Source: Salinisphaera sp. T31B1
Lineage (GTDB): Bacteria; Pseudomonadota; Gammaproteobacteria; Nevskiales; Salinisphaeraceae
NCBI RefSeq assembly: GCF_040361275.1
Contig: NZ_APNH01000001.1
Coordinates: 372,001 to 436,000, forward strand
DNA: 64,000 bases
Reading direction: 5' to 3'
Part shown: positions 32,883 to 48,723 of the stretch, one piece after another
Numbering within the stretch: position 1 is the stretch's first letter
How the letters are laid out: each line of letters begins with the position of its first letter
The notes under the pieces: generated by a model
Seen by the model: only the letters and a program-made list of their open reading frames with translations
What the model was told of the DNA's origin: nothing
Database searches by the model: none
Made by a program: the position numbers and the translations under genes

Positions 32883-33377
32883 CTAGAAAGGGAGGACGAA
32901 CAGACTGGCGTCGGGCAGCGGTACCTGGAAAAATCCTTGAAAGACGAAGTAGAAACCCAGCACGACAATGAAGCCCGCCAACGGATAGACCGCGCAGCGT
33001 GACCAGGTCCAGCGTTCATACATGGCAACACTCATGATCGCCAGATAGCTGACCAAGCCTGCGAGCACGAAGCCGATGAATGGCATCGCCAACGTGCCCA
33101 GCACCATGGCCACGATCAGCCCCACCCGCCGGCTGACCGAGCCCGGCGCGGCACGCGACTCGGGCGAGGCAAGCCCCACGAGATTCCGCACGATCAGCAG
33201 CCCGCTGAACGCCATCATCAGTCCCAGCACGGTATGCGGAAAAACCACCGCCGGGCCGTCGGGCACATCGCGTAGGTCCCACCATCCGATCAGACCGACT
33301 GCGATAAACAGTACGCCCCCGAGGGTGCCACGCACGTCGTGGCGATCTTCATCCGGTGTGCGAGCCATCACGGGCAT
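32883..33377 (-). CDS. tctB: tripartite tricarboxylate transporter small membrane subunit TctB
   Basis: A 164-residue protein with four predicted membrane helices, typical of TctB, the small integral subunit of tripartite tricarboxylate transporters. Helices start at about residues 17, 45, 85 and 130. The beginning overlaps the end of tctA by 29 bases; a later ATG at 33368 would shorten the overlap. It is the last gene of the 15.7-kb operon. With TctA and TctC it would import a carboxylated, possibly sulfonated, acid across the inner membrane. Confidence 0.83.
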   Translation of the reverse strand: MPVMARTPDEDRHDVRGTLGGVLFIAVGLIGWWDLRDVPDGPAVVFPHTVLGLMMAFSGLLIVRNLVGLASPESRAAPGSVSRRVGLIVAMVLGTLAMPFIGFVLAGLVSYLAIMSVAMYERWTWSRCAVYPLAGFIVVLGFYFVFQGFFQVPLPDASLFVLPF

Positions 33378-34878
33378 CTCCTATCGACGGGGTGGCACGC
33401 AAGCGTGCTGCGATGAGCGGATAGAACAGCGACAACGCGATCAGCACAACGATGGTGATCGCCAGCGGCCCAGACAGGAAGATCGACAGTGGATCGCCCG
33501 TCGCGCCCCCGATCATCCAACCCTGGACAAAGCCCTGTTCGGCAATGGGCCCCAGAATCAGGCCGAGCACGATGGGCGACGGCTTGAAGCCGAGCCGGTT
33601 GAGAAACCAGCCGATCACGCCGAGCACGATCATGATGACGGCGTCGGCCAGCGAATTGCGTATCGCATAGGCGCCGAGAATGGTCATAAATGCGACGATC
33701 GGCACCAGAACGGCCTTGGGGAAGGTGACGATGGATTTGAACGCATAACGACCGATCAACAACCCGATGGGCAGCATCAGTAACGTGGCGATGAACAATC
33801 CGTAGATGAAGGTATAGACCACGCTGTCGCCGCCTGACTGGAACATCGCCGGCCCGGTCTGGATGCCCTGCACCATGAGCGCTCCCAGAATGACCGCATC
33901 CGGGGGCGTGCCGGGAATGCCCAGTACGAGCGTAGGGATCATGCCGCCGCCGACTGTTGCGTTATTGGCCGACTCACTGGCCTGCAGCCCACGCGGCTCA
34001 CCCTGGCCGTAGCGCTCCGGCTGGCGTGAGTTACGTCGCGCCTCGGAGTAGGCCACCAGGCCGGCGATCGAACCGCCCGCCCCGGGCAGAATTCCCACGA
34101 ATGCGCCAATCAGCGACGAACGGATCAGATTGATCCAGTTGACTACACAGGAGCGGACCGCTTCGACCAGGCGATAACCCCGGCTCTCGCCCTGGATTTC
34201 GAGATGGCGCTCGGGCCGTGCCACGAGATCGATGAGTACCGGAATACAGTAGAGCCCGATCAGCCCCGACACCACGTCGATTCCGCCCAGCAGCGTGGTC
34301 GACTCGAACGTGAAACGCGGCGCGCCGCTGATCGGCGCCACGCCCACGCAGGACAACACCAGACCGAACGATGCGCCGATTAGCCCCTTGGTCAGCTGAC
34401 CGGCCGAAATGGCCGAAATCAGCGTCAGCCCGAAGATAGCCAGCCAGAAGTATTCGACCGGGCCGAACGCCAGGGCGACGTTGGCCAGCGGCGGCGCAAG
34501 GAACAAAAGCGCTGCGGCCCCCACCAGCCCGCCGATCACGCTCGATAGACAGGCGATGGTAACCGCCAGATCGCCGTCGCCTTGCTTGGCCATGGGAAAG
34601 CCGTCGAACGTCGTCGCGATGGCTGAAGGCGTACCCGGCGTATTAAGCAGGATCGCCGCATAGGCGCCGCCGTAGATGGCCCCGGTATAGATCGCGCCCA
34701 TCAGCAACAGCGCCGACGTCGGCTCCATCGAAAACGTCAACGGCACGAGTACCGCGATCGCCATGGTCGCGGTCAGGCCGGGGATCGCGCCGAGCACGGT
34801 ACCGGCGGTGACACCCACCACGGCCATCAACAGATTGAACGGCGTCAGCGCGCCGAAAATACTCTCGACATGAAACAT
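33349..34878 (-). CDS. tctA: tripartite tricarboxylate transporter large membrane subunit TctA
   Basis: A 509-residue polytopic protein with the two signature glycine/proline-rich repeats of TctA: GAIPGLTATMAIAVLVPLTF followed by YGGAYAAILLNTPGTPSA in the first half, and GILPGAGGSIAGLVAYSEA with LVLGIPGTPPDAVILGALM in the second. About ten to twelve helices. The ATG at 34878 has GGAGA 7 bases upstream. It lies 58 bases after tctC. Such systems carry citrate, tartrate, glutarate, terephthalate and similar acids; in sulfolactate clusters of other bacteria Tct-type genes are also found. Confidence 0.92.
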   Translation of the reverse strand: MFHVESIFGALTPFNLLMAVVGVTAGTVLGAIPGLTATMAIAVLVPLTFSMEPTSALLLMGAIYTGAIYGGAYAAILLNTPGTPSAIATTFDGFPMAKQGDGDLAVTIACLSSVIGGLVGAAALLFLAPPLANVALAFGPVEYFWLAIFGLTLISAISAGQLTKGLIGASFGLVLSCVGVAPISGAPRFTFESTTLLGGIDVVSGLIGLYCIPVLIDLVARPERHLEIQGESRGYRLVEAVRSCVVNWINLIRSSLIGAFVGILPGAGGSIAGLVAYSEARRNSRQPERYGQGEPRGLQASESANNATVGGGMIPTLVLGIPGTPPDAVILGALMVQGIQTGPAMFQSGGDSVVYTFIYGLFIATLLMLPIGLLIGRYAFKSIVTFPKAVLVPIVAFMTILGAYAIRNSLADAVIMIVLGVIGWFLNRLGFKPSPIVLGLILGPIAEQGFVQGWMIGGATGDPLSIFLSGPLAITIVVLIALSLFYPLIAARLRATPSIGDARDGSHTG

Positions 34879-34936: not shown

Positions 34937-35920
34937 CTACTTGATCAGGCCCGCTTCGGTCGCCAGTTCGGTATAGACCTCGGTCTTTTCGGTCATGAAC
35001 TTGTCGATTTCGCCGTAGGGCACGTTCAAGCGCACGAACCCGCGATCATCCATTTCCTGCTTGAACTGATCGGTGGCGTTGACCTGGCCGATCAGATCCG
35101 ACAGTTTCTGACGAATCGGCTCAGGCGTGGACTTGGGCACCGCGATGCCCCGGTACGCACCGCCCACCATGTCGATCCCTTTCTCCTTGAACGTCGGCAC
35201 ATCGGGGAACAGCGGCATGCGTTCGTCAGTGGCGACCGCCAGCAGACGGACTTCATCGGGATGGTTGGCCGCGACCGTGCTGTAGCCCCACTCGGCCTTG
35301 ACCTGGCCTCCTCGCATCGCGGTATAGGCCGCGCCGGTGCCCTTGAAGGGAATATAGGTCGTGGTCGTGCCGGTCATCTTGTTGAACCGTACGTTGGCCA
35401 TATGATTGGCCGTGCCGCTACCCGATCCGGACAGCGTCAGCCGGCCGGGGTTTTCCTTCGCATAGGCGATGAGGTCGTCCAGTGTCTTGAACTCGCTGTC
35501 CTTGTTGACCACGATCGCATCCGGCGTGTACTGGAACATGAACACGTTGGTGATATCGTCGGTCTTGAAACCGACGTTCCCCATCAATGGCTTGACGATG
35601 ATATGGGGCAGATTCGTGCCCATGATCGTGTAGCCGTCGCCCTTGCTCGAATTGAGCTGCGACCAGCCCACGGCGCCGCCCCCGCCGGGCTTGTACTCGA
35701 CGATCATGTCCTGACCGGTGATCTTCTGAAAGATCGGCTGCTGCAGGCGCGCCGTGATATCCGACTCGCCGCCCGGCCCGAACGGGATGACGTAGTGCAC
35801 CGGCCGGCTTGGGTAGTCGGCCGCATCCGCCGCCGATGCGATCCCGACACCGGCAATAGTCCATACAGCCAGCGCCGCACTCAGCGCATGGATCACACGT
35901 TTTCTGGTTCGCGTTGTCAT
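34937..35920 (-). CDS. tctC: periplasmic substrate-binding protein TctC (Bug family)
   Basis: A 327-residue exported binding protein. The signal peptide runs through about residue 32 (ending ASAADAADYPS), followed by the family start YPSRPVHYVIPFGPGGESD. GSGSGTANHMANVRF and YKPGGGGAVGW are the loops that usually grip the ligand carboxylate. The ATG at 35920 is preceded by AAGGAGGAG at good spacing, so I prefer it to a start 20 codons earlier. It is separated from comC by 84 bases, the second largest gap in the operon. It should define what the Tct system imports. Confidence 0.92.
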   Translation of the reverse strand: MTTRTRKRVIHALSAALAVWTIAGVGIASAADAADYPSRPVHYVIPFGPGGESDITARLQQPIFQKITGQDMIVEYKPGGGGAVGWSQLNSSKGDGYTIMGTNLPHIIVKPLMGNVGFKTDDITNVFMFQYTPDAIVVNKDSEFKTLDDLIAYAKENPGRLTLSGSGSGTANHMANVRFNKMTGTTTTYIPFKGTGAAYTAMRGGQVKAEWGYSTVAANHPDEVRLLAVATDERMPLFPDVPTFKEKGIDMVGGAYRGIAVPKSTPEPIRQKLSDLIGQVNATDQFKQEMDDRGFVRLNVPYGEIDKFMTEKTEVYTELATEAGLIK

Positions 35921-36004
35921 CGGTTCTCCTCCTTTCGAATCGTTGTCGTATCGGGCGGCCCGCCACGACCGTCGTGCCATGGCGGGCGACCGAGTTTGTT
36001 GTTG

Positions 36005-37018
36005 TCAGTGCGCTGGGGAATTCGCCACACGCTTTCTGATATCCGCGAATAACGAATCGTTGATGTCGATACCGTCGCTGGCCGCCTTGGCGCGCAACCG
36101 ATAACGCCGCTGGCCCGGCAGGCGCGTATCCGGCTGGCCTTCGATAGCCTCGAGCAGCACATCGAGGCGAGCCAGAAAATCCGGCCCGGCCAGACGCTGG
36201 GGGTCGATCAGCACGAAACTCTGGCCGATGCCCGGCGGCGCCCCCTTCGGGTCGAAGAACGAACTCGCCTCAAAACCGTGGTTCGAGCCGGTCAACGAGG
36301 CAGAAAGGATCTCGACCATCAAGGCCAACGCAGCACCTTTGGCCCCGCCGAGCGGGACCATCGTGCCGACCAGTGCAGCATCGGGGTCTGTCGTCGACCG
36401 GCCTTCGGCATCCAGCGCCCAGCCTTCGGGAATGGCTTCGCCACGCTGCTTGGCAAGCATGACCTTTCCACGCGCGACATGGCTCAACGACAGGTCGATC
36501 ACCAACGGGGGGCCCGACGTCCGCGGACTCGCGAACGCGATCGGATTGGTTCCGAACACCCCTTCACGGCCCCCCCAGGGCGCCATCGCCGCCGGTGAAT
36601 TGGAAAAGCCGAGCGCGACCAGCCCCTGTTCGGCCACGGCTTCGACGTGATGCCCCAGCACACCGGCGTGGTGAGAATGACTGATACCCACCACGCAGCT
36701 GCCGGCGCTGCGAGCCCTGGCAACGGCTTGTTCCAATCCATAGCGAATTGCCGGGAACGCAAACCCGTGTCCCGCGTCCACGGCCAGGGCGGCCGCGGCC
36801 TGGTCGCGTATACGCGGCTTGGCCTCACCGTCGACCTTGCCGGACGCGGCCTGGTCGGCATATGCGATCAAGCGGGCCAGACCGTGCGAGGCCAGGCCGT
36901 CGGCCTCGGCTGCGACCAGCGCGCTTGCCACGGCCTCGGCGTTTGTTTGGCTGACGTTGCTGTTGCAGAGTACCGATACGGCCAGCTTGCGCGCCTGTTC
37001 GATCGTCTGGCGGGTCAT
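36005..37018 (-). CDS. comC: ComC-like (R)-sulfolactate dehydrogenase (Ldh family)
   Basis: A 337-residue NAD(P)-dependent 2-hydroxyacid dehydrogenase of the malate/L-lactate (Ldh/MdhYiaK) family. Residues around SHSHHAGVLGHHVEA (about 113) and FGTNPIAFASP (about 155) are the family catalytic and cofactor segments. Members include malate, ureidoglycolate and (R)-sulfolactate dehydrogenases. Placed with slcC and suyAB it matches ComC, which reduces sulfopyruvate to (R)-sulfolactate, the isomer that SuyAB cleaves. The start overlaps the slcC stop by four bases, so the two dehydrogenases should be made in step. Substrate is by context. Confidence 0.8.
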   Translation of the reverse strand: MTRQTIEQARKLAVSVLCNSNVSQTNAEAVASALVAAEADGLASHGLARLIAYADQAASGKVDGEAKPRIRDQAAAALAVDAGHGFAFPAIRYGLEQAVARARSAGSCVVGISHSHHAGVLGHHVEAVAEQGLVALGFSNSPAAMAPWGGREGVFGTNPIAFASPRTSGPPLVIDLSLSHVARGKVMLAKQRGEAIPEGWALDAEGRSTTDPDAALVGTMVPLGGAKGAALALMVEILSASLTGSNHGFEASSFFDPKGAPPGIGQSFVLIDPQRLAGPDFLARLDVLLEAIEGQPDTRLPGQRRYRLRAKAASDGIDINDSLFADIRKRVANSPAH

Positions 37019-37950
37019 GGCCGGACCTCGTCGAGCGCGCCGAGCACGTTATCGACCGTGACCCGGCTGACGCGTTGGTTGGCCTGCACGGTAACCCCGG
37101 CGATATGCGGAGTGAGCAGCACATTATCGAAGCCGCCATACACCGAATCGGCCGGCAACGGTTCGTCTTCGAACACATCGATCGCAGCACCGGCGATTCG
37201 GCCGGTCCTCAGCGCCGCCGCCAACGCGGCATCGTCTATGACGCCACCACGGGCGCTGTTGATGACCACCGCGGTAGATTTCATCCGGCCGATGGCGTGT
37301 TCGTCGATCAGATGACGCGTGGTCTCGACCAGCGGCACATGCAGGCTGATCACATCGGCCTCGGCCAGCAAATCGTCGAACGACACCGGCGTGACGGCAT
37401 GGGCTGCCCAGCATGGGTCGTCTGCGGCCAGCATCGGATCGTGAGCGACGATCGTCATCCCCAGTGCGGCTGCACGTACGGCGACCCGACGGGCGATGCC
37501 GCCAAAACCGACAAGCCCGAGCGTATGGCCGGCGACTTCATGGCCGATCAGCTCGGCGCGCGGCCAGGCACCCGCGGCGACCTGGGCACTGGCCGTATAT
37601 GCGGCGCGACGCAGCATCAACGCCGCGCAAATCACGTATTCGGCGACCGCGACGTCGTTGGCCCCGGTGGCCGGCAACACGCGAATGCCGCGCCGCTGGC
37701 AGGCGTCCAGGTCGATATTGTCCAGCCCCACGCCGAGACGACCCACCACCCGCAGCGCCGGCGCTGCGTCCAGCAGCTCGGCGTCGACCTGGGTGCGGTT
37801 ACGCACGATGATTGCAACCGCCGGCGCGACGGCTTCGAGCAGCGCTTTCCGGTCGTCGACCAGGCCCGGGTCGAAACATACCGAATGACGAGCCCGCAGA
37901 TCCGCCACGGGCGTGTCATCCATGAATTCGGTGATCACGATATCGCTCAT
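37015..37950 (-). CDS. slcC: SlcC-like (S)-sulfolactate dehydrogenase (D-2-hydroxyacid dehydrogenase family)
   Basis: A 311-residue NAD-dependent enzyme of the phosphoglycerate dehydrogenase/2-hydroxyacid family. Catalytic elements are in place: VGRLGVGLDNID (about residue 68), the cofactor motif LVGFGGIARRV (about 143), Arg in NSARGGVID (about 227), Glu in DVFEDEPL (about 256) and His in LTPHIAG (about 274). In Chromohalobacter the SlcC protein of this family oxidises (S)-sulfolactate to sulfopyruvate. Here it is joined to comC and to the lyase gene by four-base overlaps. The start is chosen from the coupling; six upstream codons in frame are possible but unlikely. Confidence 0.82.
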   Translation of the reverse strand: MSDIVITEFMDDTPVADLRARHSVCFDPGLVDDRKALLEAVAPAVAIIVRNRTQVDAELLDAAPALRVVGRLGVGLDNIDLDACQRRGIRVLPATGANDVAVAEYVICAALMLRRAAYTASAQVAAGAWPRAELIGHEVAGHTLGLVGFGGIARRVAVRAAALGMTIVAHDPMLAADDPCWAAHAVTPVSFDDLLAEADVISLHVPLVETTRHLIDEHAIGRMKSTAVVINSARGGVIDDAALAAALRTGRIAGAAIDVFEDEPLPADSVYGGFDNVLLTPHIAGVTVQANQRVSRVTVDNVLGALDEVRP

Positions 37951-39458
37951 GCGGCACCATCCCGCCATTGACTCACCGCCGCCTCGAGTTCGCGATCGGC
38001 CATATCCAGCGCTTCGGTCAGCGAGTCGATACGGCTGCGATCGTCGTCCAGCCGGGCACGCGCCCGGGCCAGTGCCTGCTCCATCGGCCGTTTAGCCGGG
38101 CCGCCGGCGACGGTATGTACCTGAACGAAACTCTCGGGATCGAGCGCGCCACGTACCATGGCATCGTCAATCGGCAGGTCCTGTCCGTAGATCTCTCGTG
38201 CGGATTCGTTGACCAGCGCGGCATCGACCTCGGTCGCGTCCTTGCCCTGCTGAAGCGCACGCAAAACCAGATTGCCGACGATACGGTGCGCGGTACGAAA
38301 CGATAGCTCCGAGTTGCGATGGATGACCGCCGCGAGTTCGGTACAGCTGGCAAAATGCCGAGCGGCCTGTCGCTTCATGAGTTCGGCATCGACCCTGACC
38401 GTCGAAAACACGCCGGTCAGCAACTCCAAGATCCGTCCGGTTTCGTCGAGGGCGTGGAACACCGGCGGCGCAAGCCCTTCCTCGACGTCCTTGGTGTCCT
38501 GGTAGTTGACGTTATGCAGGCTCGCGAACGTCCCGCTCATGTCGCCGATGACGTGGGTCGCCGCAAAACGTGCGTATTCGAACGGGTACGGGTTCTTCTT
38601 CTGCGGCATCATGCTCGACGACCCCGAATAGTCATCGCCGATACTGATATAACCGAATTCCTGGGTATGCCAAGTATAGAAGTCCTGACAAAGTCGGCTG
38701 ACCGTGGTCATCAGATTGGCCAGTGCCGCCACGGATTCGAGCATGTAGTCGCCGGCGCCGACGCAGTCGTTGGTGTTTTCGATCAGGCCTTCGAAGCCCA
38801 GCAACGTGGCGACCCGGTCGCGGTCGATCGCGTAGGACGATCCGGCCAGGGCGCCGCAGCCCAGCGTGCAGTAGTTGCAGCGGTGCCAGGCCGCCAGCAA
38901 TCGATCGAGATCGCGCTCCAGGGCATTCACCAGCCCGACCAGATAGTGCCCGAGCGTGACGATCTGGGCATGCTGCATGTGGGTACCCAGCGGCATCACC
39001 GTATCTCGATGCGCCACTGCCAGTTCAAGCAGCTGATTGCGTAACGACAGTGACAAACGCGCGACCCCGATCAACCGATCGCGCATGACGATGCGCACCA
39101 GCGGCTCAGGACGGGTTCGGCCGATATTGATATCGCCGGCTACGGTCTCTCCCACTTGTGCGGTCAGATACCGCTCCATGGTCGAATAAAAGTATTCCAC
39201 CTGCGGATCGAACTCACCCATGCCCTGACGTCCATCGGTGGCCAGCCCCTCAATGGCTTCCAGAAGACCGGCCGCGGTCGCCTCGGGAATAATTTGCTGC
39301 TCGGCGAGCATGACGGTCCAGGCTTTATTCGCCTGAATAAGCCCGTCGAAATAATGTTCGAGCATGAAGTCATAGCTCGGCTTGAGCACGGTCCGCGTAT
39401 AGATTTCGCCGGGATGGCCTTCAAGGCGTTCCCGCGAAATACGACGATCTTCCGACAT
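37947..39458 (-). CDS. argininosuccinate lyase/fumarase superfamily enzyme, probable X-succinate lyase
   Basis: A 503-residue, mostly helical enzyme of the superfamily that reversibly eliminates an amine or water from a substituted succinate to give a fumarate. The signature SGSSSMMPQKKNP (residues 278-290) carries the mobile-loop catalytic serine, and THMQHAQ (159-165) supplies the second conserved patch. At the first patch, where argininosuccinate lyases have GRSRNDQ, this protein has GRTRPEP (113-119), so argininosuccinate is an unlikely substrate. Related enzymes act on iminodisuccinate or EDDS. GGAGGA lies 7 bases before the ATG. Context inside a sulfolactate operon suggests a sulfonated or other unusual C4 acid; this is inference. 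Confidence 0.8.
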   Translation of the reverse strand: MSEDRRISRERLEGHPGEIYTRTVLKPSYDFMLEHYFDGLIQANKAWTVMLAEQQIIPEATAAGLLEAIEGLATDGRQGMGEFDPQVEYFYSTMERYLTAQVGETVAGDINIGRTRPEPLVRIVMRDRLIGVARLSLSLRNQLLELAVAHRDTVMPLGTHMQHAQIVTLGHYLVGLVNALERDLDRLLAAWHRCNYCTLGCGALAGSSYAIDRDRVATLLGFEGLIENTNDCVGAGDYMLESVAALANLMTTVSRLCQDFYTWHTQEFGYISIGDDYSGSSSMMPQKKNPYPFEYARFAATHVIGDMSGTFASLHNVNYQDTKDVEEGLAPPVFHALDETGRILELLTGVFSTVRVDAELMKRQAARHFASCTELAAVIHRNSELSFRTAHRIVGNLVLRALQQGKDATEVDAALVNESAREIYGQDLPIDDAMVRGALDPESFVQVHTVAGGPAKRPMEQALARARARLDDDRSRIDSLTEALDMADRELEAAVSQWRDGAA

Positions 39459-39477: not shown

Positions 39478-41229
39478 TTATTGGGTGGCCGGCGCAGCGG
39501 TAAGCGGCGGCACTTCGTTATCCTCGATCAGGCTCTGACCCGGGGCGATCCGGGTATGCCGGACCGGCTCACGGGCAGTGACCAGTTCGCCTTCCTCGGC
39601 ACGAACGACGGTGTAACTGGCCGCCTCGGCCTCGAGCATGTGCGGATAATCGGCACGAAAATGCGCGCCGCGGGATTCCGGGCGGGCCAGCGCAGCTCGG
39701 GTGATCGCCTCGCTGACCGTGATGAGGTTGTCGAGATTCAGCCAGTCGTGCCATGTGACGTTGTAAGCGCGCGTACTCGCATCCACACCGCCGGCGTGGA
39801 GGCGCTGTCGCAGCGCCGTCAGCTCATCGAGCGCCGCGCTCATATCGGCGTGATTGCGCACGATGCCGACCTGGTGCCACATGAGCTCGTAGAGCGCTTC
39901 GCGAATCGGCTGCAAGGCAACGCTGGCCTGTTGCAGCGGCCTGTTGCAGGCGGCTACGGCGCGCTCGACGACGGCCTGGTCGGGCTCGGCCAAGGGCGCT
40001 GCACGGTCGATCCATGCGGCCATGCTGTCGCCGGCGATGCCGCCGAACACGGTCGAGTTGGCCACCCCGTTGCCTCCGAGGCGGTTTGCGCCATGCACGC
40101 CGCCGGCATCCTCGCCAGCCACGAACAGCCCGGGCAAGGAGGTGAAACAGCGTTCGTCGAAGACGACGCCGCCCATCATGTAATGCGCTGTGGGGATCAC
40201 CTCGACGCGTTCACCGGCCAGATCGAAGCCGCAATCGGCACAGCGTTTGACCATGCCGCGGAACTGCCGGCGCACGTTGTCGGGCCCCAGATGCGCCATG
40301 TAGATATAAGCGCCGCCGTTGAGCGTCGCGCGGCCGGCACCTATCTCGCTGAAGATGCCCCGACTCACGATGTCGCGGGTAGCGCGCTCACCGCGTTCGT
40401 CGTAGCGCTCCATGAAGCGTTCGCCGTCGCCGTTGAACAGGTAGCCGCCCGCACCTCGCAGCCCCTCTTCGAGCACCGTACCGGTCATTCGGGTGTGCTC
40501 TCCGGCCAACAGCCCGGTGGGATGAAACTGGACCATCTCCATATCACGCAGGGCCAGGCCGGCCTCCAGCGCCATCGCCAATCCATCGCAGGATTTATCG
40601 CCGGACGGCGTGTGGTACTTGTACATGGTCGGCCCGCCGCCCGTGCCGAGCATGACCGCCTTGGCGCGACAGAGAAGGTATTCGCCACTGCGGATATCGA
40701 TCATCAGGACGCCAGCGAGCGCATCGCCGGCGTCGGTCGGGATGATCGCGACCGCGCGATGCTCCTCCAAACGCTCGACACCGGTGGCCCAGGTCTGTTC
40801 GGCGAGACGGCTGATGATTTCGATGCCGGTGAGATCCCCGCGGTGGACCGTACGATCGAAAGTCTGGCCGGCAAACGCTTTCTGGTGGACGGTTCCGTCC
40901 GGGTTACGATCGAAAAAGCAGCCGTATTCGTTCTCTAGCTCCCGGATCCGTACCTGGGCCTGCTCGACCAGCGTCCAGGCCACGTCCTGGTTGTTGAGCC
41001 ACTTGCCACCGTTGATGGTGTCCATGAAGTGGCGCTCGGTGGAGTCGGTTGGCGCCAAGGCGACGTTGTAGCCGCCCTGGACCATGCGCGTGCATCCGCA
41101 TTTGCCGAGCAGCCCCTTAACGGCGATGGTCACGCGTAGCTCGGGCGCGGCCCGCTTGGCATGCAGGGCGGCCAGTAGTCCGGCCCCACCACTGCCCAGA
41201 ACGAGAATGTCGGTACATATCTGTTTCAT
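39478..41229 (-). CDS. succinate dehydrogenase/fumarate reductase-like flavoprotein subunit
   Basis: A 583-residue FAD protein homologous to SdhA/FrdA. The FAD motif LGSGGAGL is at residues 11-18. Substrate residues are conserved: H236 in FHPTG, R285 in TRDIV, H349 in AHYMMGG and R383 in HGANRLGG. Two positions differ. The histidine that carries covalent FAD in SdhA aligns with C46 (GKCGCTRMVQGG), and the threonine in SdhA VTEG aligns with E254 in VLEEG. It is followed by the lyase gene and preceded by two membrane anchors and an iron-sulfur subunit, giving a full four-part complex. Its substrate is probably a substituted succinate rather than succinate itself. Confidence 0.85.
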   Translation of the reverse strand: MKQICTDILVLGSGGAGLLAALHAKRAAPELRVTIAVKGLLGKCGCTRMVQGGYNVALAPTDSTERHFMDTINGGKWLNNQDVAWTLVEQAQVRIRELENEYGCFFDRNPDGTVHQKAFAGQTFDRTVHRGDLTGIEIISRLAEQTWATGVERLEEHRAVAIIPTDAGDALAGVLMIDIRSGEYLLCRAKAVMLGTGGGPTMYKYHTPSGDKSCDGLAMALEAGLALRDMEMVQFHPTGLLAGEHTRMTGTVLEEGLRGAGGYLFNGDGERFMERYDERGERATRDIVSRGIFSEIGAGRATLNGGAYIYMAHLGPDNVRRQFRGMVKRCADCGFDLAGERVEVIPTAHYMMGGVVFDERCFTSLPGLFVAGEDAGGVHGANRLGGNGVANSTVFGGIAGDSMAAWIDRAAPLAEPDQAVVERAVAACNRPLQQASVALQPIREALYELMWHQVGIVRNHADMSAALDELTALRQRLHAGGVDASTRAYNVTWHDWLNLDNLITVSEAITRAALARPESRGAHFRADYPHMLEAEAASYTVVRAEEGELVTAREPVRHTRIAPGQSLIEDNEVPPLTAAPATQ

Positions 41230-41239
41230 GCCGTTGTCC

Positions 41240-41581
41240 TCAGAACGCTCGCAAAAGGAAACCGAGCCCGCAGGCCAGCGCCAGGGCGAAACTTGCTGCG
41301 ACGAGATTCTTCTGCGCGGCTCGCCAGCCCAGCATTTCCAGTGCCAGGATGCGTAGACCACTGGCCAGATGGACCGACAGCAGCACGACCAGTCCGCCCT
41401 CGGCCACGCGTACCAGCGGCAGCTCTGTCCACGCCAGGAAGTGATCGAGCTCGGCAGCCCCAGCCAGACTCAGCCCCAATACATAGAAATGCGCCGGCAG
41501 GAACAGCGCCAGCAGCAGCCCGGAGATCCGGTGAACGGCGAAGCCCCAGTACGGCAGGTGCTGTCTCGGCCCGCCCCTCAT
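41240..41581 (-). CDS. SDH-like membrane anchor subunit (SdhC-like, HRxSG)
   Basis: A 113-residue protein with three membrane helices. It contains FAVHRISGLLL, the HRxSG signature of SdhC quinone-site and heme anchors, and a second histidine in LSVHLASGLRIL that could ligate heme b. It starts at an ATG overlapping the preceding stop by four bases. Together with the other anchor it would hold the flavoprotein and iron-sulfur subunits on the membrane and pass electrons to quinone. A longer in-frame version beginning at 41671 is not credible because its extra part lies inside the upstream gene. Confidence 0.8.
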   Translation of the reverse strand: MRGGPRQHLPYWGFAVHRISGLLLALFLPAHFYVLGLSLAGAAELDHFLAWTELPLVRVAEGGLVVLLSVHLASGLRILALEMLGWRAAQKNLVAASFALALACGLGFLLRAF

Positions 41582-41934
41582 GCGAACAACCCCTGCAACG
41601 CACGCAGGCCCAGCACCAACAACAGGACCGCAAAGCCGATGGCCACCAGATCCAGGCTGCGCCCGTGCCAACGGGTATGTTCACGGACGATATTGCGCAA
41701 ACCGATGGCACCGTGGACGGACGCCGCGACCATGAAGATCGCGTAGAACCCGTACCAGGCGACCGACCCACGCGTACGCGCTAGTATTTCGTCGGCCGAC
41801 AGACCGCCCTGCACCACGATGATCATCGTGGCCAGATGAACGACAACGGCCAGCGCCAGCACCATCGAGCTGAGCCGCATGGCGACCCATATCCATAATT
41901 CCGTCATGGCGGGCATTGATGAGGAGCGGTTCAT
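41578..41934 (-). CDS. SDH-like membrane anchor subunit (SdhD-like)
   Basis: A 118-residue protein with three membrane helices. Histidines occur in VVVHLATM and ASVHGAIGLRNI, the latter resembling the heme-ligand segment of SdhD (HxxxGLR). It is coupled on both sides by ATGA overlaps, to the iron-sulfur subunit upstream and to the SdhC-like anchor downstream. Longer readings upstream overlap the iron-sulfur gene and are out of keeping with the family. Its presence shows that the complex is membrane-bound and quinone-linked, not a soluble fumarate reductase. Confidence 0.78.
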   Translation of the reverse strand: MNRSSSMPAMTELWIWVAMRLSSMVLALAVVVHLATMIIVVQGGLSADEILARTRGSVAWYGFYAIFMVAASVHGAIGLRNIVREHTRWHGRSLDLVAIGFAVLLLVLGLRALQGLFA

Positions 41935-42650
41935 AACTTGCCCTTGAGAGCCGCGACGACGCTCATGCGTTTGAGGCCAGCGATGGCGCTTGCCGGGTCG
42001 AGTTCCATCGGGCAGCGCAGCGTGCAGCTCTGCTGGCTGTGGCAGGCATGACAGCCCGCGTCGCCGCTGACGGCGCGTAGGCGCGCTGTGTGCCCGGTAT
42101 CGCGCTCGTCGTTCATCTGTACCCAAGCCCGGTTGAGCGCGGCCGGTCCGAGATAATCCGGCTTCCATGCGACGACATCGCAACTGCTGTAGCACACGCC
42201 GCAGCCGATACATTCCTGGGCTTGATCGGCCAACCGGCGTGCGGGCGAGTCCGGCTCGACCACGGCGAACTCGGCGGTTTTATCTTCTGTGGAACCTACA
42301 TAGGTGCCGCCCGCATCCCGCCATTTGTCGAAGAATGGTGCCATGTCGGTGACCAAGTCCTTGATCACCGGCAGATTCGCCAGCGGCGCGATCTCGAGCC
42401 GGCCGTTGGCGGCCACCTTGTCCACGTGCGTACGGCAGGTCCAACGCGCGGTCCCGTTCACGCGCATGGCGCACGAACCGCACATGCCGACCCGGCAGGC
42501 AAAACGATAGGCCAGCGTCTCGTCGATCTCGCGCTGGATATAGCTGACGACGTCCAACACGGTCTGGTTGGCCCGCTGGGGTACCCGGTGTTCTGCGTAG
42601 TGTCCTTCGTCGGCGCCTTTCCAGACGGCAACCGTCAATTTATGGCTCAT
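41931..42650 (-). CDS. SDH-like iron-sulfur subunit
   Basis: A 239-residue electron-transfer subunit. The ferredoxin-like [2Fe-2S] site uses C52, C57, C60 and C72 (CRVGMCGSC ... WTC). The C-terminal domain has CIGCGVCYSSC (C148, C151, C154, C158) and CHACHSQQSCTLRC (C201, C204, C210, C214) for the [4Fe-4S] and a 3- or 4-iron cluster, as in SdhB/FrdB. All expected cysteines are present. The start overlaps the HAD gene stop by four bases (ATGA). It would relay electrons from the unusual flavoprotein to quinone. Confidence 0.88.
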   Translation of the reverse strand: MSHKLTVAVWKGADEGHYAEHRVPQRANQTVLDVVSYIQREIDETLAYRFACRVGMCGSCAMRVNGTARWTCRTHVDKVAANGRLEIAPLANLPVIKDLVTDMAPFFDKWRDAGGTYVGSTEDKTAEFAVVEPDSPARRLADQAQECIGCGVCYSSCDVVAWKPDYLGPAALNRAWVQMNDERDTGHTARLRAVSGDAGCHACHSQQSCTLRCPMELDPASAIAGLKRMSVVAALKGKL

Positions 42651-43351
42651 GAAACGACTCCGTAGGCCAGTACGGCCGGCAGCTGTGACAGATCGGCAAC
42701 GACCCAGTCGGGCGTGAAACGCGGCTCGACCAGGCGATCGTCGAACCGGTTCGACCACGCACAAGCCAGGCCGGCCGCGCGGGCACCCATGACATCGGTC
42801 GACGAGCCGGCCACGTGAATCAATGCCTCGGGCAGGACATCCAGCGTGTGCAGCGCATGCCAGTACACGTTTGGATGCGGCTTGTAGGCGCCGGCGCGCT
42901 CAGCCGACAGCACTGCCTCGATGAACGGCAACCGACGGGCCAGGGCTTCCAGCATGTCCTGATCGCCGTTGGACAGCAGCGCCAGTCGGTAACCCTGCTC
43001 ATGCAGCTTCGCCAGCGCCGCAGGCGCGTCCGGCCAAGGCGACAGTTCGTCCCAGGCATCAACCAGCGATTGGCGCACGCGCCGGGGCAGATCGATCGCA
43101 TTCGTGGCCAACGCATAGTCCAACGCCAGCGCCGTAGCGCGACGAAACGACAGATGACCTCTTTGCAGCATACTGTGGTGCATGGCCACCGCCAGCTGTC
43201 GGGTTCGCCAGCATTCGAGCACCCCTTTCGCATGCGACCGATCGTCGCCGTCCAGTGCCTGCGTCAGCGCTGGCAGCAAGGAACCGCGGAAATCGAACAA
43301 CGCCGAGTAGACGTCGAATGTCACCCACCGGTCTATTACCGAATCAGCCAT
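42647..43351 (-). CDS. haloacid dehalogenase type II-like HAD protein
   Basis: A 234-residue HAD-superfamily protein most like L-2-haloacid dehalogenases. The nucleophile Asp is in VTFDVYSALFD near residue 10, WRTRQL matches the substrate-binding arginine region, SNGD the second motif, AGAYKPHPNVY the lysine motif and SSTDVMGARAAG the last motif. The common DxYGT is altered to DVYSA, losing the usual threonine. It overlaps the TSUP gene by eight bases and the iron-sulfur gene by four. Function in the operon is unclear: dehalogenation, a phosphatase role, or repair of a damaged intermediate are all possible. Confidence 0.75.
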   Translation of the reverse strand: MADSVIDRWVTFDVYSALFDFRGSLLPALTQALDGDDRSHAKGVLECWRTRQLAVAMHHSMLQRGHLSFRRATALALDYALATNAIDLPRRVRQSLVDAWDELSPWPDAPAALAKLHEQGYRLALLSNGDQDMLEALARRLPFIEAVLSAERAGAYKPHPNVYWHALHTLDVLPEALIHVAGSSTDVMGARAAGLACAWSNRFDDRLVEPRFTPDWVVADLSQLPAVLAYGVVS

Positions 43352-44105
43352 GAATGCCTCGCCTGATGAGGTTGATCCCGAGCACGACAAGCACGCCCAG
43401 CAGGATGCGTCGGAACAGCACCGCGTCGATATAGCCTCGAACGATCCGGCCGATCGTCAGGCCGGCAAACACCGGCAACAGCGCGGCGCACGACCAGATC
43501 AGCTCGGTGGCGCCGAGTACGCCGGTGGCCATATAGGACATCGCCAAGGGGATCGAGCCCGCAAGCGCGATCAGGCCATAGGCACCGACGAACTGATCCT
43601 TGTCGAGATCGCAGGCCACCAGATACATCAGCAGCGGCGGCCCATTGACGGTCGACAAGCCATTCAACACGCCGGCGCTGCTCCCCACGACCAGACCGGC
43701 CCAGCCGCGATCCCGGGGCCGCAGCCGTAACGTCGGCTTGAGGACGTTGACGATCGCAAAGCCGATCGCGATCACGCCCAGTATCAGCAACAGCACCGAC
43801 GGATCGATGCTGGCCATCAGCCAGCCGCCCACGGCGGTGGCCACACAGAAGCAAAGGATCAACGGCCAGAAGTTGCGCCACGCGGTCCGGATATAACCGC
43901 TGCTGACCGCCTGCCAGAAATTGGACACGATCACCGGCGCGACCATCAGCGCAAGCATCTGATGTGGATCTAGAAAACTGCCCAGCAAGGCGATGCTGAC
44001 CACCGGCAGGCCCATGCCGATGGTGCCCTTGACGGTCGCGGCCAGCAGCAGCACCAAGGCCACGAGCATCGTGGCGGATACGGGTGACAAACCCGCCACA
44101 TCCAT
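43344..44105 (-). CDS. TSUP family permease, probable sulfite exporter of the sulfolactate operon
   Basis: A 253-residue membrane protein of the TauE/SafE family. AATVKGTIGMGLPVVSIALL near the N-terminus and SSAGVLNGLSTVNGPPLL in the middle are the paired family motifs. SuyAB releases sulfite, which is toxic, and TSUP proteins are the usual exporters in organosulfonate clusters, so sulfite export is the best call. The ATG at 44105 has GGAG 8 bases upstream; an earlier start would add eight residues. It overlaps the HAD gene. No sulfite dehydrogenase gene is in the operon. Confidence 0.82.
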   Translation of the reverse strand: MDVAGLSPVSATMLVALVLLLAATVKGTIGMGLPVVSIALLGSFLDPHQMLALMVAPVIVSNFWQAVSSGYIRTAWRNFWPLILCFCVATAVGGWLMASIDPSVLLLILGVIAIGFAIVNVLKPTLRLRPRDRGWAGLVVGSSAGVLNGLSTVNGPPLLMYLVACDLDKDQFVGAYGLIALAGSIPLAMSYMATGVLGATELIWSCAALLPVFAGLTIGRIVRGYIDAVLFRRILLGVLVVLGINLIRRGIHG

Positions 44106-44139
44106 CACGCCGCTCCGTGTGTCAGGCACGGGTAGACAG

Positions 44140-45042
44140 TCACCGCTGCATCCCCCACTTGCGCACCGTATTGACCTCGATCGTGCGAAAGATCAGGCCT
44201 TCTACAAGCAGGCCGATCAGAATGACCGTCAGCAGTCCGGCGAACACGGCGTCGGTCTGCAGCTCGTTGCGGTTTTCGAAGATGAACCAGCCGATACCGC
44301 CGCCACTGGAATTGGCACCGAACACCAGTTCGGCGGCGATCTGTGTACGCCAGGCGAACATCCAGCCGATCTTCAACCCGGACAGAATGGTCGGAAACGC
44401 CGCGGGCATGAGCAGCTTGGTCACGTAGCGCCAGCCGGTCAGGCCATAGTTGCGACCCGCCATGCGCAATGTCTCGCTCACCGAAATGAAACCGGACAAC
44501 ATGTTCAGCGCCACCGCCCAGAGCACGGCGTGAATTAGCACGAAGACGATGCTGCCGGTGCCGAGCCCGAACCACAGCAAAGCCAGCGGCAGCAATGCGA
44601 TCGCCGGAAGCGGACTGAACATCGCGGTGAGAATGCCGAGCAGGTCGGAGCCGAACCGGGTCAGGACCGCGAATGTGGTCATCACGGTTGCAAGGGCTAC
44701 GCCGGCGCCGTAACCGACGAGCAGCACACTGATCGAATTCCAAGCCCGCGACAGGAGCGGCCCGTGGACTGCCGAGTCCCATAACGCACTGATCGTCGCC
44801 GTGAATGTCGGGAACAGCAGCGGGTTGTTTGCCCATACGGTATAGAGCTGCCAGATGCCGGCAAGCACCAGTAGAATGAACAGGTTACGGACCAGCGTAT
44901 TGTCTCGTACGCGTTGCCAGAGGCTGAGATCTCTGGCGATCTCGCCGATCTCGCCGACAGGCCGCGGCTGCCTCTCGAACTCGGCTCTGACCGGTGGCTC
45001 GATCGGCGCAGGCGTTCCGGTAGCACTCGTATTATTCGCCAT
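44140..45042 (-). CDS. ABC transporter permease, taurine/nitrate/sulfonate type
   Basis: A 300-residue inner-membrane permease of the SsuC/TauC/NrtB type with about six helices. The EAA-loop region that contacts the ATPase is around MAGRNYGLTGWRYVTKLLMP, followed by AAFPTILSGLKIGWMFAWRTQIAAELV. A 60-residue cytoplasmic, proline-rich N-terminal part precedes the first helix. The start is placed at MANNTSATG because it overlaps the ATPase stop by eleven bases; the frame continues upstream without family similarity. It works with the ATPase and lipoprotein encoded just upstream. Confidence 0.88.
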   Translation of the reverse strand: MANNTSATGTPAPIEPPVRAEFERQPRPVGEIGEIARDLSLWQRVRDNTLVRNLFILLVLAGIWQLYTVWANNPLLFPTFTATISALWDSAVHGPLLSRAWNSISVLLVGYGAGVALATVMTTFAVLTRFGSDLLGILTAMFSPLPAIALLPLALLWFGLGTGSIVFVLIHAVLWAVALNMLSGFISVSETLRMAGRNYGLTGWRYVTKLLMPAAFPTILSGLKIGWMFAWRTQIAAELVFGANSSGGGIGWFIFENRNELQTDAVFAGLLTVILIGLLVEGLIFRTIEVNTVRKWGMQR

Positions 45043-45883
45043 GAGCTTCGACCTTCTGCTCGGCCTCGACCTGCTCCGAAAACAGCATGTGGTGTATCCG
45101 CTGCTGCAAGGACTGGAACTCCGGGCAGTCCTGATTGGCGTGATTGAACTGCTCGGCGTTGAGCTCCGCACGTACTTGGCCCGGATGGGGCGAGAGCACC
45201 AGAATGCGTGAGCCGATGATCACAGCTTCCTGAATCGAATGCGTTACGAACAGTACGGTGAAGCGCAGCTCGTCCCAGAGTTGCAGCAGCTCCTCCTGCA
45301 TCTTCAGGCGGGTCAGCGCATCAAGCGCGGCGAACGGCTCGTCCATCAGAAGGACCGCCGGTCCCATGGCCATCCCGCGTGCGATCGCCACACGCTGTTT
45401 CATGCCGCCGGACAACTGGTGTGGATAAACCTCGCAGAACTTGCTGAGATTGACCTTGTCGAGATACAGGCGTCCGCGTTCGAAGGCCTCTTTACGGCCG
45501 TACTTGCCGCTGCTGATCATGGGGAAAACGACGTTTTCCAGCACCGTCTTCCAGGGCAGTAGCTGGTCGAACTCCTGAAACACCATCATCCGGTCGGGTC
45601 CGGGCCCCCGAACGGGCTTTCCGCCGAGATTGATGGAGCCCTCGACTGGAGACATGAAGCCACCTACGCCTTTGAGCAACGTCGATTTGCCGCAGCCCGA
45701 GGGCCCGAGCAGAACGAAACGGTCGCCCGGATGGACCTGGAAGTCGACCTGATAGCTGGCGGTCACTATCTGTCGTTTGGTCTTGTACTGCAGAGTCACG
45801 CCGCGCACGTCGAGCAACGGCTCGGCGGCATGGGTCGAAGACGGCACCGATGGGTCGATGCCATTCATGGCACTGGTCAGCAT
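45032..45883 (-). CDS. ABC transporter ATPase, taurine/nitrate/sulfonate type
   Basis: A 283-residue ATP-binding subunit. Walker A is GPSGCGKST, the Q-loop VFQEFDQLLPW, the signature LSGGMKQRVAIARG, Walker B VLLMDEPFAALD and the H-loop THS. The PWKTVLENV stretch after the Q-loop is typical for SsuB/TauB/NrtD-like importers. GGAGGAG lies about 6 bases before the ATG. The C-terminal 40 residues (after SPHPGQV) are extended and end near EQKVEAHGE. It would drive uptake of a sulfonate or similar anion. Confidence 0.92.
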   Translation of the reverse strand: MLTSAMNGIDPSVPSSTHAAEPLLDVRGVTLQYKTKRQIVTASYQVDFQVHPGDRFVLLGPSGCGKSTLLKGVGGFMSPVEGSINLGGKPVRGPGPDRMMVFQEFDQLLPWKTVLENVVFPMISSGKYGRKEAFERGRLYLDKVNLSKFCEVYPHQLSGGMKQRVAIARGMAMGPAVLLMDEPFAALDALTRLKMQEELLQLWDELRFTVLFVTHSIQEAVIIGSRILVLSPHPGQVRAELNAEQFNHANQDCPEFQSLQQRIHHMLFSEQVEAEQKVEAHGE

Positions 45884-45974: not shown

Positions 45975-47024
45975 TCAGCTGCCCGGCTCGTTGGCGACCT
46001 CCGGGAAGAACATGTCTTTCCACGAACCGGCCTCGTGGTCGATCGACTTGATCTGGTGCATGAACCGGGCGTATTTCATGACGTTCTTGGGCGTGGTCGT
46101 GAACTCGATGTCCGGATCGGTGATGATCTGGAAAATCAGATCCTCCGGTAGCTTCGAATTGGCTTCGGCGATATAGATCTTGGCCGCCTCACGCGGCTTG
46201 TCGGCGATGAACTGCATCGCCTGCTTGAGCGCGGCGAATACCGCGGCGAACAGTTTCGGATGGTCGTTACGAAAACTGTCGGATGCCCATAACGTGTTGA
46301 AGGTCGACTTGCCGCCCAGGACGTCGTAGGAGGTCAGAACCTGGTGTATCCCGTCACGTTCGAGCTCTTGCTGGTAGTAGGGAGGCGAGCCAAAATGCGC
46401 GTTGACTTCGCTGTTGCTCAACATCGCCGCCATCGCATCGGGATGTTTCATCGACACCGTCAGGTCGTCGAGCCGATCGTAGGCGTCGTTTCCCCACTGC
46501 TTGGCCGCTGCCATCTGCAAGGTGACCGCCTGAATGGAAACCTTTACTGCCGGTAACGCGATTCGATCGGTCTTGTTGAAGTCCTCGATCGACTGGACTT
46601 CCGGATCGGACGTGGTCAACACGATCGGTATGCTGTTGATCGCACCCAGCGCCTTGACGTTCTGGGCACCACGGGTTTTGTCCCACATCTTGATCATCGG
46701 GCCTACGCCGCTGGCGGCGAAGTCGAGGTTGCCGGACAACAGTGCGGCGCTGGTCGATGCGCCGCCACCCAGCGTCACCCACTCGATGTCGACCTGATCG
46801 ATACCGCGCTCCGCGGCCTGGGCTTCGACCATCTTGTTATGGCGCATGACCATCAACGGGAGATAGCCGACACCGTACTGCTGAGAGAAACGGATGGTCG
46901 GTGTCTCGCTTTCCCCGCCCGAGCAACCTGTCAGCCATGCGTTCGCAAGCAAGACGGCCAGTAGCACGGTGACGACCCGTAAAGGCCGGACAGCAATTTT
47001 TCGTGAACGTCGATTCGTGGTCAT
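45975..47024 (-). CDS. ABC transporter substrate-binding lipoprotein, taurine/nitrate/sulfonate type
   Basis: A 349-residue binding protein anchored as a lipoprotein (lipobox LTGCSGG near residue 34). The N-terminal lobe starts with IRFSQQYGVGYLPLMVMRHN, the SsuA/TauA/NMT1 pattern, with the ligand loop GGGASTSAALLSGNLDFAASG near residue 90. GGAGGAG before the ATG gives a strong start. The gene sits between suyB and the ATPase gene, so this transporter is an early part of the operon. Its ligand is likely the growth substrate, perhaps different from that of the Tct system. Confidence 0.88.
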   Translation of the reverse strand: MTTNRRSRKIAVRPLRVVTVLLAVLLANAWLTGCSGGESETPTIRFSQQYGVGYLPLMVMRHNKMVEAQAAERGIDQVDIEWVTLGGGASTSAALLSGNLDFAASGVGPMIKMWDKTRGAQNVKALGAINSIPIVLTTSDPEVQSIEDFNKTDRIALPAVKVSIQAVTLQMAAAKQWGNDAYDRLDDLTVSMKHPDAMAAMLSNSEVNAHFGSPPYYQQELERDGIHQVLTSYDVLGGKSTFNTLWASDSFRNDHPKLFAAVFAALKQAMQFIADKPREAAKIYIAEANSKLPEDLIFQIITDPDIEFTTTPKNVMKYARFMHQIKSIDHEAGSWKDMFFPEVANEPGS

Positions 47025-47127: not shown

Positions 47128-48294
47128 TCATGCGCTCCGATACAGCTTGGTCAGCACGAATTCACGGTGGCCAAGCGCTTCGGCCGAGGTGAGCCGGCCA
47201 CTGCAGGTCTCGAGCATGGATTCGATCAAGGCATCGCCTGCCTGATCGAAATCCATTTCGCGACGCAGGATTCCGGATACGTCCAGATCGATATGCTCGG
47301 ACATGGTGCGCACCGTCCGCGGATTGGCCGACAACTTCACCACGGGCTCGACCGGATTCCCGATGATGTTGCCCTGCCCGGTGGTGAACAGATGGACTAC
47401 GAAACCCGCGGCACACATCAACGTCACGCATTCGGCGGCGGCCGACGAGGTATCCATGTAGTAGAGACCGGGCCCTTTCGACGGTTCTTCGGCCGGCTCC
47501 AGCACATCGATATACTTCGAGTCGTTGCCGATCTTCATGAAGTTGCCGAACGCCTTTTCCTCGATCGTCGACAGCCCGCCCTCGATGTTGCCCTTGGTCG
47601 GCTGCGACTCGGACAGATCGTTAGTCTTGTGGCGATTGATGAAATCGTTGTAACTGCCCCAGGTGTCCAAGAATTTCTTCTTGGTCGCCTCGTCGGCGGC
47701 ACGCTCGGCACAGACCGTCTCACAGCCGGTCAGCTCGGATGTCTCGCCGAAACACAGCGTCGCACCCTCGGGCACGAGCTTGTCCATCAGGTTGCCCACG
47801 GTCGGGTTGGAAGCCAGGCCCGACGTGGTGTCGGATTCGCCGCACTTGGTCGATATCCACAGCTCATCGATACCGCATTCCTCGCGTTGCTTTTCCGAGG
47901 CGTCCTGAACGAATTTCTTTGCCGCCCACGAAGCACGGGAGATCGTGTTGATATCGCCATGCTGTTCGATCGCGAAGCCCTCGACGGGCTTGCCGGTCTT
48001 CGCGATGCCGTCGACCACCCGCTGCGTCCAACCCGGCTCGATGCCGATCACCACCACGGCCGCGACGTTCGGATTGGCGCCGGTGCCGATCAGGGTCCGG
48101 AAATGCAGATCCAGATCGGCACCGAATTGCAGGCGTCCGTAGGGATGTGGAATCGCCATCGTGCCCTTGATGTTGTTGGCCACCGCCTCACAGCAAGCAT
48201 TGGATATGTCGTCCAGCGGCAGAATGATGACGTGATTGCGGATACCGACACGGCCGTTCTCGCGCCGGTAGCCCAGAAATGTGCGTTTGCTCAT
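47128..48294 (-). CDS. suyB: (2R)-sulfolactate sulfo-lyase beta subunit SuyB
   Basis: A 388-residue protein of the UxaA/altronate dehydratase large-subunit family, matching SuyB, the catalytic subunit that removes sulfite from (R)-sulfolactate to leave pyruvate. Family features: [21 protein letters not shown] at the start, NACCEAV near residue 35, [21 protein letters not shown] near residue 155 and ETSELTGCE near 190, with cysteines that may bind an iron-sulfur cluster or iron. The start at 48294 lies just after the suyA stop, so the two should be coupled. An alternative GTG at 48303 would overlap suyA. Confidence 0.9.
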
Positions 48295-48296
48295 GG

Positions 48297-48581
48297 TTAC
48301 CACCGCTTGGTCTTGATGTTGTGGACGTGGACGTGGTCGCCCTTGGCGATCGCGGCTACGGCACGGCCGATGTCGTGCTCGTACTCGATGATCGTGTCGT
48401 CGTCGCCGATTTCATCGAGCGCGATCTTGTGGCCGATCGGAATGTCGTGATTGGCCTTGAGTTCGATCGTTTCGTCGTTCTCCATCATCCAACCCGACAG
48501 CGTCTGCCCGGCCTTGATGCCTTCGACCACGACAACGCCGACCTTGTCGGCCTTGTTGTGGACCAGGAAGTGGGTCTCCAT
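48297..48581 (-). CDS. suyA: (2R)-sulfolactate sulfo-lyase alpha subunit SuyA
   Basis: A 94-residue SAF-domain protein, the small subunit partner of SuyB. The sequence [20 protein letters not shown] at the start, [13 protein letters not shown] in the middle and the ending [12 protein letters not shown] are characteristic of SuyA and of the related small subunits of altronate-type dehydratases. GAGGAG lies about 9 bases before the ATG. It is the first gene of the operon, 142 bases from the divergent regulator. Because it is first and paired with SuyB, sulfolactate cleavage should be the most strongly expressed step. Confidence 0.9.
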
Positions 48582-48668: not shown

Positions 48669-48723
48669 ATAACCAGGACTCGGATATGCTTTCGACGCTC
48701 GCTTTACCGTGGATTTTCCGGCC

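Follow-up and report, generated by a model that had tools for sequence, protein, structure and literature searches.

A complex II-like flavoprotein with cysteine at the flavin-linking position in Salinisphaera sp. T31B1: a candidate 3-sulfopropionate dehydrogenase subunit

The 64,000-nucleotide stretch of the Salinisphaera sp. T31B1 genome analysed here (the window) encodes, at 39478..41229 on the minus strand, a protein resembling the succinate dehydrogenase (SDH) flavoprotein in which the flavin-linking histidine and a substrate-site threonine are replaced by C46 and E254, raising the question of which substrate it acts on and in which direction. The open reading frame starts with ATG, encodes 583 amino acids and has its boundaries exactly at 39478-41229, and the plus strand across the same interval is interrupted by stops. 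The product carries the domains FAD_binding_2 and Succ_DH_flav_C, is covered by them over its full length and is about 33% identical to SdhA, FrdA and NadB of E. coli. In a MAFFT alignment of the window protein with these three sequences, the SdhA and NadB of the host genome and relatives, C46 falls in the column of the flavin-linking histidine (H45 in SdhA, H44 in FrdA; serine in NadB) and E254 in that of the substrate threonine of the TEG motif (SdhA T254), while H236, E255, R285, H349 and R383 correspond to SdhA H242, E255, R286, H354 and R399. The first-pass annotation had, by manual alignment, reported C46 in place of the FAD-linking histidine, E254 in place of the threonine in VTEG and retention of H236, R285, H349 and R383. 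That alignment was correct, since MAFFT gives the same residue assignments, with a cysteine and no histidine at the linking position; the four retained residues all match SdhA catalytic residues, and E255 is kept in addition.

Neither C46 nor E254 varies in any of the 96 family members examined, which extend down to 48% identity and from Proteobacteria through haloarchaea (the latter at 48%), and with such invariance the pattern is, judged from the sequences, far from chance. Between H236 and E254 the active-site loop has six more residues than its counterpart in SdhA and FrdA (HPTGLLAGEHTRMTGTVLEEG versus HPTGIAGAGVLVTEG); its residue 247 is always basic across the relatives (arginine in 93, lysine in three) and its T249 is invariant among the 96. 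An AlphaFold model (mean pLDDT 74.7) has the fold of a complex II flavoprotein and was used for the fold and not for pocket geometry, because pLDDT falls below 50 around the active site, at residues 40-58, 108-134, 237-246 and 379-388.

Relatives were obtained from genomes (80, among the matches listed of 588 candidates, with 63-70% identity and mostly from Beta- and Alphaproteobacteria) and from plasmid records (48-68% identity), the latter belonging to Methylobacterium, Paracoccus, Sulfitobacter, Cupriavidus, Pseudomonas, Rhodococcus and two haloarchaea. A phylogeny against SdhA, FrdA and NadB, as the first-pass annotation had proposed, places the SDH-like family in a single clade apart from the rows of these three proteins (SH-aLRT 99, with long branches flagged by the program). 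The flavoprotein also fails to reach the curated cut-off in any of the NCBIfam models listed. Its best match is TfrA (NF004900, about 509.5 bits versus a cut-off of 718), and lower scores were obtained with the SdhA models TIGR01816 (329.5 versus 727 bits) and TIGR01812 (421 versus 567 bits), the NadB model TIGR00551 (348.5 versus 452.75 bits) and the model of the 8-methylmenaquinol:fumarate reductase (330 versus 1100 bits). The identity of the last enzyme was rejected on this cut-off. That of NadB was rejected on its cut-off and as the flavoprotein is not stand-alone but lies in an operon with SdhBCD-like genes, and that of TfrA as the iron-sulfur partner, in addition to the failed cut-off, scores as SdhB (193 bits, versus 123 bits for TfrB). 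Membership of the complex II superfamily is evident from the two flavoprotein domains, the SdhB-like subunit, the Sdh_cyt anchors and the catalytic H/R/H/R set, and quinone-coupled turnover is predicted for the complex. Compared to Sdh and Frd of E. coli, it shares the fold, the catalytic arginines and histidines, an iron-sulfur subunit and two Sdh_cyt anchors, but differs in C46, E254, the extended loop with its basic residue 247 and T249, the low identity and a clade of its own. The gene is present in six of 274 genomes in an even sample of the class and missing from a sampled congener, and is therefore regarded as accessory.

The genes surrounding the flavoprotein are transcribed from the minus strand, beginning with suyA (48297..48581), a 94-residue open reading frame with a SAF domain (PF08666) encoding the small subunit and adjoining suyB in relatives, and suyB (47128..48303), encoding the large subunit of (2R)-sulfolactate sulfo-lyase. 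The suyB assignment is based on 70% identity to the UxaA-family protein of the hpsN-hpsO-suyAB cluster of Cupriavidus pinatubonensis, whereas other UxaA-family plasmid proteins reach at most 39%; SuyAB of that organism is described as a sulfolactate sulfolyase (PMC12890257). These are followed by an ABC transporter consisting of an NMT1-like substrate-binding protein (45975..47024, syntenic in relatives), an ATPase (45032..45883, 63-77% identity in syntenic relatives) and a permease (44140..45042, putative start), by a TauE/SafE-family sulfite exporter (43344..44129, PF01925) and by an accessory type II haloacid dehalogenase-like (HAD) gene (42647..43351, TIGR01428, 142 bits, above cut-off). 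Next come the SdhB-like iron-sulfur subunit (41931..42650; TIGR00384 at 192.9 bits, Fer2_3 and Fer4_17/Fer4_8; putative start in a frame listed to 42764), which is 54-68% identical in proteobacterial relatives, and two membrane anchors with Sdh_cyt domains (PF01127). The SdhD-like anchor (41578..41934, in a frame listed to 42213, its start placed by overlap with sdhB) is found in relatives, and so is the SdhC-like anchor (41240..41581, also TIGR02970, in a frame listed to 41671, its start placed at Met 41581 by overlap with sdhD). Downstream of the flavoprotein lie an ArgH-superfamily lyase, here a candidate hydratase (37947..39458), a SlcC-like D-2-hydroxyacid dehydrogenase (37015..37968; 2-Hacid_dh, syntenic with suyB and Ldh2 in relatives), which is an (S)-sulfolactate dehydrogenase candidate, and a ComC-like dehydrogenase of the Ldh2 family (36005..37018; Ldh_2, PF02615), which is an (R)-sulfolactate dehydrogenase candidate; the best NCBIfam match of the latter is NF040650, L-sulfolactate dehydrogenase, at 212.6 bits and under the cut-off of 500. 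The operon ends with a tripartite tricarboxylate transporter (TctC-like receptor, 34937..35980, PF03401; TctA permease, 33349..34878, PF01970; TctB, 32883..33377, PF07331). A GntR/UTRA protein encoded divergently to suyA on the plus strand (48709..49455) is, from its domain match and position, likely the operon regulator.

When a sulfonate replaces one carboxylate, succinate, fumarate and malate become 3-sulfopropionate, 3-sulfoacrylate and 3-sulfolactate. Based on this chemical analogy and on the neighbouring genes, the flavoprotein is probably part of a quinone-linked, four-subunit complex II that has specialised on a sulfonate counterpart of succinate, with 3-sulfopropionate as the most likely one. 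The candidate enzyme would convert 3-sulfopropionate to 3-sulfoacrylate, passing electrons from the flavoprotein to the SdhB-like clusters and through the SdhCD-like anchor to quinone. The hydratase, which would be the ArgH-superfamily lyase in the window and a class I fumarase in relatives, would add water to sulfoacrylate and yield 3-sulfolactate. Hydration of the L-malate type gives L-, that is (R)-sulfolactate, the substrate of SuyAB, which would then release pyruvate and sulfite, the latter being exported by TauE. The SlcC/ComC-like pair would interconvert the sulfolactate enantiomers over sulfopyruvate, a capacity described for SlcC and ComC (PMC12421959). All four proteins of the SlcC/ComC-SuyAB module of Chromohalobacter, Paracoccus and Cupriavidus have counterparts in the window operon, which differs in joining them to a complex II-like enzyme and a hydratase rather than to DHPS or sulfolactaldehyde dehydrogenase. 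Formation of 3-sulfopropionate from homotaurine by GabT/GabD-type enzymes is known (PMC5320631). Its breakdown is, in the passage of PMC11489063 that deals with it, unreported save for the thesis of J. Mayer on Roseovarius nubinhibens, in which sulfoacrylate and sulfolactate were proposed; the chemistry is that predicted here, and the passage names no genes. Nor were genes for 3-sulfopropionate breakdown found in the open-licence literature searched.

The suggestion of the first-pass annotation that the substitutions mark a different substrate thus gains strong support from the operon, from synteny over many genomes and from the family-wide fixation of C46 and E254, which together point to a sulfonate rather than to succinate. 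Its alternative suggestion, a different direction, finds no such support, the context being one of catabolic oxidation into sulfolactate and SuyAB. The substrate and the direction are what we infer from this context, and E254 and the longer loop with its basic residue 247 and T249 may contribute to fitting the sulfonate. However, an acidic E254 beside a sulfonate is not obviously favourable, and counts against 3-sulfopropionate as the best explanation.

The same neighbourhood bears on a more conventional role. A plain SDH paralogue was rejected, as SdhA and NadB proper are encoded on another contig of the genome, and the substitutions are fixed family-wide. More broadly, a second succinate dehydrogenase of the ordinary kind would have the same fold and subunits, as would an enzyme acting on a non-sulfonate, for instance a methylsuccinate dehydrogenase, but both are highly improbable in a neighbourhood which is sulfonate-specific. 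Methylsuccinate, one of the candidates of the first-pass annotation, is disfavoured by SuyAB, TauE and the sulfite dehydrogenase neighbours found in relatives. Citramalate, formed from mesaconate, is a tertiary alcohol not oxidisable by the dehydrogenases present, and a methylsuccinate/mesaconate pathway leaves SuyAB, TauE and the 2-hydroxyacid dehydrogenases unexplained.

The predicted hydration step is occupied by different proteins in different genomes. The window operon lacks the fumarase pair; relatives have a class I fumarase in the position that the ArgH-superfamily lyase occupies here. One sampled genome (G263) holds almost the same set of operon genes (suyAB, sdhBDC, an ABC transporter, fumarase alpha/beta, sdhA, slcC, comC and TauE) with fumarase alpha/beta positioned where the window has the lyase. 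That two unrelated enzyme families fill the place after the dehydrogenase argues that an unsaturated product is hydrated at this step. The lyase passes TIGR00838 (336.8 bits) but was ruled out as the biosynthetic ArgH, the true ArgH being encoded elsewhere (position 84424 of contig C5, 628 bits) and the lyase grouping with SDH-linked haloarchaeal genes. At the limit used, just two plasmid records out of 72,556 matched the lyase family, those from Natribaculum and Haloarcula (55% identity), both times adjoining an SDH-like gene, and the family was absent from the other 273 sampled class genomes. The name argininosuccinate lyase given to these genes in the haloarchaeal records is likely a misannotation of the whole subfamily. 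The two haloarchaeal plasmids (L092 and L106) carry the SDH-like flavoprotein, SdhB, the ArgH-like lyase, a UxaA-family pair and TauE, without annotated adjoining anchor genes.

In order to examine gene context in relatives, 49 loci flanked by 5 kb or more on each side were compared; these were chosen by the flavoprotein, so that the counts describe linkage and not prevalence, and the loci are not independent by kinship. Fumarase alpha is found in 47 and SdhB in 46 of these, followed by the ComC-like dehydrogenase (26), SuyB (24), TauE (21), a TPP enzyme (21) and the SlcC-like dehydrogenase (14), and 43 contain one or more of SuyB, TauE, TPP enzyme and SlcC-like protein. SuyB is missing within 10 kb in about half of the loci, which counts against the proposed pathway, though a sulfite dehydrogenase, TauE or the TPP enzyme is often present there. 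Among the 274 class genomes, SuyB is present in 11, the SDH-like gene in six and both in five, i.e. SuyB in 5/6 carriers versus 6/268 others (Fisher p = 2.2e-7, uncorrected for kinship); in the remaining carrier (G265) SuyB was not found at the threshold used.

These counts also bear on sulfosuccinate, the main rival to 3-sulfopropionate. Oxidation to sulfofumarate would be followed by hydration to sulfomalate, oxidation by the SlcC/ComC-like dehydrogenases to sulfo-oxaloacetate, decarboxylation to sulfopyruvate and reduction to sulfolactate for SuyAB. Every protein present could serve in such a route, the conserved H236, R285, H349 and R383 would bind both ends of an acid that keeps both carboxylates, and a larger acid would suit the tripartite dicarboxylate-type transporter. 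Nevertheless, sulfosuccinate is an unlikely substrate: both dehydrogenases would be obligatory, yet the SlcC-like and ComC-like genes occur in 14 and 26 of the 49 loci, the decarboxylation step has no conserved gene, and the compound is known largely as man-made whereas the SDH-like family spans haloarchaea to Burkholderiales. No sulfosuccinate pathway of this type was found in the open-licence literature searched. The first-pass annotation had listed sulfosuccinate and had not named 3-sulfopropionate; the former is possible but less economical.

3-Sulfopropionate is to be weighed also against other C3 or C4 sulfonates, e.g. a substituted 3-sulfopropionate, handled by the same logic of dehydrogenation, hydration and cleavage via SuyAB or the TPP enzyme. 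The transporters (ABC, TTT, TRAP and DctA) and accessory genes vary among loci and the HAD-like gene occurs in the window operon alone, both in favour of such a substrate, but sulfolactate, on which SuyAB acts, is directly reachable only from sulfoacrylate, and the reading is regarded as quite unlikely. No counterpart of the HAD gene was found in the loci of the relatives; it may allow a halogenated or phosphorylated precursor to enter the pathway.

If 3-sulfopropionate is oxidised, the cysteine at the linking position becomes a question of flavin potential. In complex II, succinate oxidation depends on the histidyl-FAD bond, which increases the flavin potential (PMC9557727, PMC10238741, PMC2680327), and enzymes without covalent flavin lose this activity (PMC9557727, PMC2680327). 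A Cys-bearing dehydrogenase would therefore need a cysteinyl link or other means of raising the potential, a point that counts against 3-sulfopropionate oxidation. In an FrdA study, cysteine at the linking position reportedly gave non-covalent flavin. The Wolinella enzyme has alanine (A86) at this position and non-covalent FAD, and A86H alone sufficed for covalent attachment (PMC2680327). As this single exchange was sufficient and the position is always cysteine in the SDH-like family, a cysteinyl link at C46, like that of 8alpha-S-cysteinyl flavoproteins, is a fair hypothesis with which the strict invariance is compatible. The full combination, a widespread unnamed branch of complex II respiring 3-sulfopropionate with FAD thioether-bound to the invariant C46, is put forward only tentatively; if true, a cysteinyl rather than histidyl linkage would restore the high flavin potential for oxidation in this superfamily.

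A missing histidine is, conversely, typical of reductases unable to oxidise succinate, and the complex could be a fumarate-like or sulfoacrylate reductase with non-covalent FAD, comparable to the Wolinella methylmenaquinol:fumarate reductase and to TfrA. TfrA, the CoM/CoB thiol:fumarate reductase, is likewise not known to carry the linking histidine and is the best match in a comparison made by profile. However, the window protein is under its cut-off, and its partner is a classical SdhB with membrane anchors and not the long TfrB. The 8-methylmenaquinol:fumarate reductase of Wolinella (SdhABE) is likewise a complex II without the linking histidine, but the window protein has no N-terminal export extension, has cysteine and not alanine, and is associated with other membrane subunits. 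The operon partners make catabolic sense only with oxidation, and sulfite-oxidising genes adjoin the SDH-like gene in M. nodulans and Pseudomonas MPC6, which renders a reductase improbable.

These sulfite dehydrogenase neighbours fit sulfite as the end product. Genes of the SorT type and annotated as SoxC adjoin the cluster at L091 22078-23265 and L108 4025-5314.

3-Sulfopropionate arises from sulfoquinovose, the sugar of the plant sulfolipid, via gut bacteria and from homotaurine via soil bacteria. Bilophila converts it to H2S, and a 2026 review (PMC12890257) describes the mechanism as unclear. The cluster offers concrete candidate genes, in many genomes, for 3-sulfopropionate breakdown and, if true, fills a sulfur-recycling route that has been without genes. 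It would also constitute a natural test of a change of complex II substrate from a carboxylate to a sulfonate, and of dehydrogenase activity in a complex II that lacks the histidyl-FAD bond. Database labels such as succinate dehydrogenase, fumarase and argininosuccinate lyase on the cluster genes mislead metabolic models.

Some loci carry further genes beside the cluster. A TPP-dependent decarboxylase-like gene adjoins the SDH-like gene in 21 of the 49 loci (the TPP enzyme tested is under the Xsc cut-off), and a CoA-acylating, methylmalonate-semialdehyde-dehydrogenase-like gene is found in the loci of Cupriavidus necator N-1 and Pseudomonas MPC6; neighbours of these two kinds lie at L107 4013-8438, L091 15316-16806 and L090 13637-15262. 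Where SuyAB is absent, the TPP and CoA-acylating enzymes may provide another route from sulfolactate, leading through sulfopyruvate. The NT-25 plasmid, the one locus with plausible 3-sulfopropionate-feeding genes, has beside the cluster one gene resembling that of sulfolactaldehyde-3-reductase and one for a succinate-semialdehyde dehydrogenase (SSADH). Such genes would be expected if 3-hydroxypropanesulfonate or homotaurine were a source of 3-sulfopropionate, and their products would make 3-sulfopropionate from 3-hydroxypropanesulfonate. On a plasmid of Paracoccus pantotrophus (NZ_CP038206.1, 249761-250930), where no gene is listed, a match covers residues 190-579 of the flavoprotein only (57%), possibly a broken copy or an annotation gap; homotaurine breakdown is reported for another strain of this species (PMC12421959).
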